Source of the DNA: a virus
IMG/VR virus record: IMGVR_UViG_3300030117_006141
Span: 1 to 64,000 of that record
Reading direction: 5' to 3' (one strand)
DNA length: 64,000 bases
Shown: positions 46,272-53,456 of the stretch, piece by piece
Layout: each line of letters begins with the position of its first letter
How positions within the stretch are numbered: position 1 is the stretch's first letter
The notes under the pieces: generated by a model
Databases searched by the model: none
Told to the model about the DNA's origin: nothing
The model's input: the letters and a program-made list of their open reading frames with translations, nothing else
Position numbers and translations under genes: made by a program

Positions 46272-46284
46272 TTAATATAAATAT
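46272..46284 (-). promoter_or_regulatory. candidate late promoter before the gp5 operon
   Basis: The minus strand reads ATATTTATATTAA, followed by AGGGAG and the start at 46259. It is identical in core to the 42363 and 22048 sites and is placed directly after the late sigma factor gene. Confidence 0.42.
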
Positions 46285-52061: not shown

Positions 52062-52577
52062 GGTGGACTGGAATTACCTAAATATAACCTACTTGATTGT
52101 TATAGTCTTTGGTTTGCTTTCTTCAGACACAGGCACCTGTATCATTAATAAACCATTTTGCATTGATGCATTGATTGTGGTAAGATCATACTTTGGACTT
52201 ACCTTCCATCCCATATCAAAACTTCTTCTAGCTATACCCTTATGGATATAATCATTAGCTTCTATATTTGAAGGGTTTGATTCAACTGATGGTTTTTTAT
52301 AAGCAACCTTCAAAGTATTGCCTTCAGTTGTAATACTGATATCGTCTTTCTCTAATCCAACGCAAGCGATATCAAAACATAATTCACCCATATCATTAGT
52401 ATAAATGTCTACAGGGTAATTAGGTTTCTGTTCCACAAATGATTGGAACATTGATTCATTGTCAAAAAAATTTCTGAATAATAGGTCCGTTGGTAAGAAC
52501 CTCTCTTGTAAGAATGTTGTCATAATTAAATCTCCTTAAATAATTTAATGTTAATATAAGGCGTCATCCAGTCCACC
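52062..52577. repeat. 11-bp inverted repeat flanking the Hsp20 gene
   Basis: GGTGGACTGGA on the plus strand at 52062-52072 and its exact complement TCCAGTCCACC at 52567-52577 bracket the Hsp20 gene. The arms are perfect. They may be regulatory sites, a remnant of insertion of the gene, or chance. Confidence 0.4.
52089..52523 (-). CDS. small heat-shock protein, Hsp20/alpha-crystallin family
   Basis: 144 residues. The alpha-crystallin core is visible: NYPVDIYTNDMGELCFDIACVGLEKDDISITTEGNTLKVAYKK, then KGIARRSFDMGWKVSPKYDL and NGLLMIQVPVSEESKPKTITIK. The final TITIK is in the place of the I-x-I anchor. This ATP-independent chaperone holds unfolding proteins and is common in marine T4-like phages, where it may assist virion assembly. 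GGAG lies 8 nt before the start. Confidence 0.92.
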   Translation of the reverse strand: MTTFLQERFLPTDLLFRNFFDNESMFQSFVEQKPNYPVDIYTNDMGELCFDIACVGLEKDDISITTEGNTLKVAYKKPSVESNPSNIEANDYIHKGIARRSFDMGWKVSPKYDLTTINASMQNGLLMIQVPVSEESKPKTITIK

Positions 52578-53198: not shown

Positions 53199-53221
53199 AC
53201 GCAGTAAATTTTAACCTCTAG

Positions 53222-53444
53222 CCTCCGGGATTTTGACGACATGATCCCTGTTCGCCGTTGGGTCAGGGTGCCTATCAGGCAGCCATCGCCATTTCAACTT
53301 GTTCGCCAGTTGTTACGGTGACCTTCCTTATATCCTTATCATCCTGTCAAATCCGATCATCCCCATGTCGTAAATATCTTTTAGTGGAGATGGAGGGAAT
53401 CGAACCCTCGTCCAAGAATGTAGCTAATACAAGTACTAGCGGTC
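53222..53444 (-). ncRNA. ssrA: circularly permuted (two-piece) tmRNA
   Basis: Reading the minus strand: first an acceptor piece (~53444-53385) with T arm GGACGAGGGTTCGATTCC and 3' acceptor strand CATCTCC-A. A ~20-nt intervening segment follows (53384-53365). Then the coding piece starts GGGGATG...GGATTTGACAGG (5' end at 53364), the conserved tmRNA 5' end. GGGGATG pairs with CATCTCC (one G-U). The tag frame is 53307-53278 (GEQVEMAMAA) with tandem stops TGA TAG inside a TGCC/GGCA hairpin, then a CCCTG/CAGGG hairpin. The CCA is not encoded. It frees stalled ribosomes and tags nascent chains; host SmpB would be needed. The 3' border of the coding piece is approximate. Confidence 0.88.
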
Positions 53445-53456
53445 ATATATAAATAT
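53445..53456 (-). promoter_or_regulatory. ATATTTATATAT element directly before the tmRNA
   Basis: The minus strand reads ATATTTATATAT immediately 5' of the acceptor piece and touching the stop of the 80-residue gene. It matches the candidate late-promoter core, so the tmRNA precursor could start here; alternatively it is just the AT-rich gene end. Confidence 0.35.

Follow-up and report, generated by a model that had tools for sequence, protein, structure and literature searches.

Two-piece transfer-messenger RNAs (tmRNAs), the products of circularly permuted ssrA genes, have been published from alphaproteobacteria, betaproteobacteria and cyanobacteria and from their phages. Permuted ssrA transcripts in such systems are cleaved into two pieces (PMC11915505). 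Among phages, a two-piece tmRNA has been described for the OM43 phage Melnitz and others, and 53 of 133 unique phage tmRNA structures were two-piece according to ARAGORN (PMC9004378). Here we describe a permuted tmRNA gene on the minus strand of the 64,000-nucleotide stretch (the window) at positions 1 to 64,000 of IMG/VR record IMGVR_UViG_3300030117_006141, which has 79,615 bases in all. With a probability of about 0.82, we take this gene to encode a functional two-piece tmRNA in a T4-like phage whose host is most likely a member of the Bacteroidota, the phage being one of a large clade that has a permuted tmRNA type of its own.

Like the window phage, Melnitz and a pelagimyophage are myophages with a two-piece tmRNA. 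The Melnitz tmRNA is of the alphaproteobacterial type and is controlled by a glutamine riboswitch and an early promoter (PMC9004378), whereas the window gene has a Bacteroidota-like tag, no riboswitch match in the Rfam scan and a late-type motif upstream. The permuted alpha, beta and cyano tmRNAs (RF01849, RF01850 and RF01851) share with it the gene order, the tRNA-like domain and the G-U identity pair, but the alpha- and beta-like forms resume at Ala and encode CCA. Conversely, the one-piece tmRNAs of the Bacteroidota (Parabacteroides, Bacteroides and Phocaeicola) have, like the window gene, a Gly resume codon, a tag of GE or GN type, a TAACTGGCGAA-like context and no encoded CCA, but their genes are not permuted.

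The earlier note on this DNA listed known permuted ssrA genes from alphaproteobacteria, cyanobacteria and some betaproteobacteria. A permuted gene in a phage of this kind is not unprecedented: two-piece phage tmRNAs are published (PMC9004378), and permuted tmRNAs annotated simply as tmRNA are already present in Chryseobacterium phage MA9V-3 and in crAss-like phages, which have Bacteroidota hosts, so the window is not the first case. The MA9V-3 gene (PV245944.1, 22766-23124), deposited just as tmRNA SsrA, comes from a phage isolated on Bacteroidota and resembles the window gene in being permuted according to ARAGORN, in its score with the general permuted model RF04321 (64.7 bits) and failure to pass the beta model (40.7 bits against a cut-off of 84), and in its Gly resume codon and lack of CCA. 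It differs in its unrelated tag, GNVIDINKYVAKLEVAA, and its 60-nt intervening sequence. Six tmRNAs of the Crassvirales, an order known for infecting Bacteroidales, are likewise permuted according to ARAGORN, with a Gly resume codon and no CCA (cr114_1, cr125_1, cr115_1, cr52_1, cr60_1 and cr10_1). Unlike the window gene, they have tags beginning with GN and longer intervening sequences, and only two of the six reach the RF04321 cut-off (cr114_1, 50.9 bits; cr10_1, 49.6 bits). We found no paper on the MA9V-3 tmRNA and no description of permuted tmRNAs in Bacteroidota phages in the literature searched; GenBank annotates such genes as tmRNA, and the deposited annotations do not state the permuted form.

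Several crAss-like tmRNA genes (L001, L195-L200) have RAGATH-9 or RAGATH-20 RNAs upstream, and L001 has a hatchet ribozyme as well. In cr56_1 (L195) and cr113_1, an endonuclease gene read from the other strand lies between sequences that resemble the two ends of the crAss-like tmRNA; these tmRNA genes may hold a mobile insert in the intervening sequence.

Layout of the permuted tmRNA gene

The gene occupies approximately 53220-53440 (minus strand), as judged from ARAGORN, RF04321 and covariation over 52 sequences, and the limits given in the earlier note, 53222-53444, are good. Its transcript would run from an acceptor piece through an intervening sequence to a coding piece. On the minus strand, TATTTATA (53455-53448) is followed by the acceptor piece (53385-53440, defined by layout and covariation), which contains the 5′ strands of P2 (53427-53433 and 53415-53420), the T stem-loop (stem 53405-53409 with 53393-53397), the acceptor 3′ strand CATCTCC (53386-53392) and the discriminator A (53385). 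No CCA is encoded after this A; CTA stands in its place. The intervening sequence, CTAAAAGATATTTACGACAT, covers the 20 nt between the discriminator and GGGG (53365-53384). Then come the acceptor 5′ strand GGGGATG (53358-53364), before which an RNase P cut is expected (before 53364), GGATTTGACAGG, the 3′ strands of P2 (53340-53345 and 53327-53333, within 53327-53345), the tag reading frame from GGC to GCC with the stops TGA and TAG, and a pseudoknot. The 3′ part of the acceptor stem thus precedes its 5′ part, and the gene is circularly permuted, as the earlier note had proposed. Its pairing of GGGGATG with CATCTCC also stands, including a wobble of the G3-U70 type in 52 of 52 aligned sequences.

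An independent ARAGORN call places a permuted tmRNA on the minus strand between 53184 and 53476 and reads its tag as GEQVEMAMAA, closed by two stop codons. The same strand matched the Rfam model tmRNA_permuted (RF04321) at 53275-53434, with a score of 62.3 bits where the curated cut-off is 47 and an E-value of 1.2e-9 for the window as a whole; no other Rfam model reached its gathering threshold anywhere in the 64 kb. When an E-value cut-off was applied instead, the runner-up was beta_tmRNA (RF01850), whose 49.1 bits fall short of the 84 required; in this output, from which weaker overlapping matches of the same clan are absent, the alpha and cyano models did not outscore it. Neither alpha_tmRNA (RF01849) nor cyano_tmRNA (RF01851) gave a gathering-level match in the window. 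In the model comparison suggested in the earlier note, the general permuted model was the only one passed at its threshold. The standard one-piece model (RF00023) had no match in the window at its gathering threshold, and the layout is permuted. Controls passed the models of their own lineages: an alphaproteobacterial gene with 269 bits, a beta-type viral gene with 117.7, the cyanophage S-SSM7 gene with 109.4 (cyano) and a standard Parabacteroides tmRNA with 134.8, and a Bacteroides ihuae control matched RF00023 and not RF04321.

Conserved structure of the two pieces

A structure of 39 pairs was drawn by hand and tested on 52 distinct aligned sequences. Of 1987 cells, 94.4% were paired (83.8% after shuffling; at most 52% with slid partners). 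Double changes occurred in 20 pairs (at most 9 with slid partners) and in 224 cells (shuffle mean 70; at most 37 with slid partners). Strong covariation was seen in the tRNA-like helices, in P2 and in one pseudoknot. The layout, recurring in 52 distinct relatives with such covariation, is far beyond chance.

Pairing between the two pieces, in P1 and P2, is conserved. The third pair of the acceptor stem, the G-U identity pair for alanine, is invariant (UG in 52 of 52). The two P2 helices, numbered 1 and 2, are paired in 98.6% and 79.1% of cells, respectively, with nine pairs showing double changes, and P2 together with P1 would hold the two pieces together.

The resume codon GGC (53305-53307) opens the 8-nt loop of a hairpin, CAACU-GGCGAACA-AGUUG (53295-53312). 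A 5-bp stem with an 8-nt loop was present in 80 of 81 sequences, the remaining one being cut by a contig end. Five versions of the stem occur, related by compensatory changes, the variants being UAACU/AGUUG, UAACA/UGUUG, UAACC/GGUUA and UAAUC/GAUUA. The stem UAACA/UGUUG turns the tag GEQVE into GEHVE, as expected if the pairing is under selection. Invariant-looking letters near the resume codon in alignment A2 were an artefact of the search pattern AACTGGCRAACAAGTTGAA and were corrected by a scan keyed on the acceptor piece. By eye, similar resume hairpins occur in some crAss-like phage tmRNAs and in the L120 tmRNA.

The tag frame, GEQVEMAMAA (53278-53307), ends at TGA TAG (53272-53277); it is a stop-ended frame with an Ala-rich end of small and hydrophobic residues. 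A hairpin, UGCCU/AGGCA (53269-53281; helix 5, paired in 97.7% of cells), covers the last Ala codon and the stop. After the tag lies an H-type pseudoknot (53227-53258; helices 6 and 7), in which ACGG (53255-53258) pairs with UCGU (53236-53239) and is crossed by GGGAU (53244-53248) with AUCCC (53227-53231); helix 7 shows double changes in all five of its pairs.

The phage and its clade

The record encodes T4-type portal, terminase and baseplate wedge proteins, which identifies it as a T4-like myovirus. Its terminase is nearest to those of Mel-JY01 (58.6%) and Flavobacterium phage immuto (56.9%), with 33.7% for Rhodothermus phage RM378; searches of the whole records of these three phages found no permuted tmRNA. 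The same tmRNA was present in a sister contig, 3300030333_003285, and in larger contigs of 133, 115 and 67 kb. A scan for AACTGGCRAACAAGTTGAA gave 95 stretches, about 80 of which carry a permuted tmRNA according to ARAGORN. Searching with the acceptor piece in place of the tag gave 74 stretches, 36 of them new. The common layout fits 81 distinct sequences. We estimate the clade at about 80-110 contigs of T4-like phages, none of them from a cultured phage, and no phage in the INPHARED set matched the tmRNA gene across most of its length.

A portal gene was found in six of the tmRNA contigs, and in each the portal is 57-64% identical to that of the window. In the portal tree, immuto and Mel-JY01 belong to one group across which the tmRNA carriers are spread over several branches; the gene has therefore either persisted or been transferred within this group, and some members lack it.

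An open, stop-ended tag of ten residues finishing in AMAA was found in 70 of the 81 sequences, alongside conserved longer forms. One subgroup has conserved tags of 36-37 residues in place of ten, ending in AMAA or a near form, for example GKQVETVKAGIFASLAAIRFLATETVATEESVFAMAV (L187, L215, L282, L359, L360, L370, L380, L383, L384 and others). The tags that ARAGORN reports for L187, L215, L282 and similar members are wrong; the long tags emerge on reading from the Gly resume codon. The clade thus offers a natural set of extended tags. The intervening sequence ranges from 16 to 91 nt among the relatives (16-21 nt in most members), and in two IMG/VR contigs, L216 and L282, it contains an intact tRNA-Ala (UGC). 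A tRNA-His lies in that of the crAss-like cr114_1 (L001, 3041-3113).

Lineage of the permuted gene

The resume codon is Gly in 80 of 80 clade members, and CCA is lacking in 73 of 80. Bacteroidota-like one-piece genes have the same features (Gly in 11 of 11; no CCA in 10 of 11), with the tags GENNYALAA in Parabacteroides, GETNYALAA in Bacteroides finegoldii and GNENYALAA in Phocaeicola, all without CCA. By contrast, alpha genes have an Ala resume codon and CCA in 27 of 27 cases each, and both features are present in 55 of 55 genes of the AND group, with the mis-tagged L282 set aside. The statement in the earlier note that Bacteroidota have one-piece tmRNA holds for the host genes sampled; a Prevotella replicon (1.77 Mb) and a Flammeovirga plasmid contained no tmRNA of either form.

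A tree was built on 58 columns of the tRNA-like domain. It sets almost all of the alpha, AND and cyano genes on one side of a split (support 92/84), with almost all of the phage-clade, crAss-like, MA9V-3 and Bacteroidota one-piece genes on the other. In the approximately unbiased (AU) test, a single clade of all permuted genes was rejected (p = 0.0035), and a grouping of the phage genes with the Bacteroidota one-piece genes was not (p = 0.094). The columns are few, selection is shared, some rows are misplaced and the known permuted forms already comprise several lineages; within these limits, the results hint at an independent permutation and do not establish it.

The window gene passes only the general permuted model, fails the beta model, and has Gly, no CCA and a GE-type tag; it therefore does not have the look of an alpha, beta or cyano import, and looks like a separate permuted lineage. 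On this evidence, its type is neither the one-piece form of the host nor a gene borrowed from one of these three groups. The earlier note had offered a choice between a wrong host guess and a foreign-type tmRNA; with a match to the general model only and Bacteroidota-like details, that choice is a false one. A messenger part like that of one-piece hosts in a permuted gene raises the question of how often permutation arose, and whether it arose in phages. We tentatively suggest, as a possibility that we rate below even, that Bacteroidota phages carry a fourth lineage of permuted tmRNA, which would go back to a one-piece tmRNA of Bacteroidota that was circularly permuted independently and would then have been shared among T4-like, crAss-like and other phages, and that the conserved tags of about 37 residues in one subgroup may have a role beyond marking proteins for destruction.

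Host and alternative sources of the gene

Several lines of evidence point to a host in the Bacteroidota, an assignment that we consider probable and that the earlier note had also guessed: the matches of the phage tRNA-Ala, the portal tree, in which Flavobacterium phage immuto is nested, and the details of the tmRNA. Searched against the plasmid collection, the tRNA-Ala best matches six records from Bacteroidota (86.7-93.3%), with Flammeovirga first (93.3%), followed by Persicobacter (two records), Rufibacter, Aureibacter and Chryseobacterium.

A number of observations weigh against a working tmRNA in a Bacteroidota phage. Most alphaproteobacterial genes score more than twice as high with RF04321 as the window gene does, P2a is paired in just 79% of cells, and the single-strand folding energy is not unusual (z = -1.0), giving no support. 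The transcript may also be uncut or inactive. The host is itself an indirect assignment. In the phage collection, the tRNA-Ala matches are mostly cyanophages (85-87%), which is weak counter-evidence. Bacteroidota promoters, cited as a host sign in the earlier note, cannot serve as one: TTTG-N17-22-TAnnTTTG sites number zero on the sense strand and four on the antisense strand, against a shuffled mean of 1.2, and so lend no support. The use of Shine-Dalgarno sequences is intermediate (37% in the window, 2% in immuto, 57% in T4) and not decisive. Finally, the phage closest in both terminase and portal, Mel-JY01, has Microcystis as its recorded source.

This last record bears on an alternative that we regard as unlikely, namely that the tmRNA was borrowed from alphaproteobacteria, betaproteobacteria or cyanobacteria, or that one of these groups is the true host of the phage. 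It is from these groups that the well-known permuted ssrA genes of bacteria come, the best-scoring lineage model is beta (49.1 bits), and metagenome-assembled genome (MAG) bins with related portals are labelled Pelagibacter and Euryarchaeota. But the beta score is far under its cut-off and the alpha and cyano scores are no higher, while controls pass at 269, 117.7 and 109.4 bits; the Gly resume codon and absent CCA are unlike the alpha and AND types; the plasmid-collection records closest to the tRNA-Ala are from Bacteroidota; and the AU test rejects a clade of all permuted genes, within the limits of 58 columns and of known permuted forms that already make up several lineages. We also tried to read the host from the MAG bins, whose labels (Euryarchaeota, Pelagibacter, unnamed) were uninformative. 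In the portal tree, Mel-JY01 falls in with immuto, and its record (PP395634.1) includes a protein annotated as 'major paralogous domain'; the host on record may be worth a check.

Proposed processing and function

For the two-piece tmRNA of a Bacteroidota phage that we favor, we propose the following course. A single precursor would be transcribed, probably from the phage promoter TATTTATA. RNase P would cut before GGGGATG, and 3′ processing after the discriminator A would complete removal of the 20-nt intervening sequence. The two products, roughly 55 nt (acceptor piece) and 145 nt (coding piece), would stay joined through the 7 bp of P1 and the 13 bp of P2. The free variation of the intervening sequence and its capacity to hold an intact tRNA-Ala fit such a removal; where a tRNA-Ala or tRNA-His lies within it, maturation of that tRNA would itself part the two pieces. 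The host would add CCA, host alanyl-tRNA synthetase would charge the RNA by way of the G-U pair, and host SmpB and EF-Tu would deliver it to stalled ribosomes, where GEQVEMAMAA would be added, the ribosomes released and the product passed to proteolysis. The phage would probably gain by keeping ribosomes free late in infection. The smpB gene was absent from the seven phage contigs tested, so host SmpB must serve, and this phage-borne ribosome-rescue RNA would have to work with the SmpB of a host with the one-piece form.

The same absence of smpB could be read in favor of a tmRNA that is degenerate or serves as a decoy, competing with the host tmRNA instead of carrying out trans-translation. 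We consider this improbable, in view of the open tags finishing in AMAA (ten residues in 70 of 81, plus the conserved longer forms), the invariant acceptor G-U pair and the compensatory changes that maintain the resume hairpin. That the transcript functions uncut, as a one-piece permuted RNA, would suit the short intervening sequences of most members but is highly improbable, as charging needs a free CCA end that would be internal in an uncut transcript, the tRNA-Ala in the intervening sequence of some members would part the pieces on maturation, and permuted ssrA transcripts elsewhere are cut in two (PMC11915505).

Upstream element and neighbouring genes

The element just 5′ of the tmRNA gene, TATTTATA (53448-53455, minus strand), is conserved in the relatives, and its reverse complement, TATAAATA, is the core of the T4 late promoter. 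It has 26 sense and 13 antisense copies, with about 9.7 expected, many of them immediately 5′ of gene starts, and it precedes many structural genes on the minus strand (for example at 46283, 42377, 30215, 22059, 14767, 9534, 7085 and 1309). Judging from this distribution, it is probably a late-type phage promoter element. A longer intergenic element, roughly AAAATATTTGGA-N20-CGTATATTTATATTATAAATAA, has four copies (G000 59023, 62025, 62354 and 69391, minus strand), which are possibly early promoters.

A neighbouring gene of 198 aa had no relatives in our searches. An Hsp20/alpha-crystallin gene (window 52089-52523, minus strand) lies two genes downstream of the tmRNA, and a gene for a PALP-family pyridoxal-phosphate-dependent enzyme (L003 6170-7120, minus strand; approximately G000 66169-67119) adjoins the phage tRNA-Ala gene.
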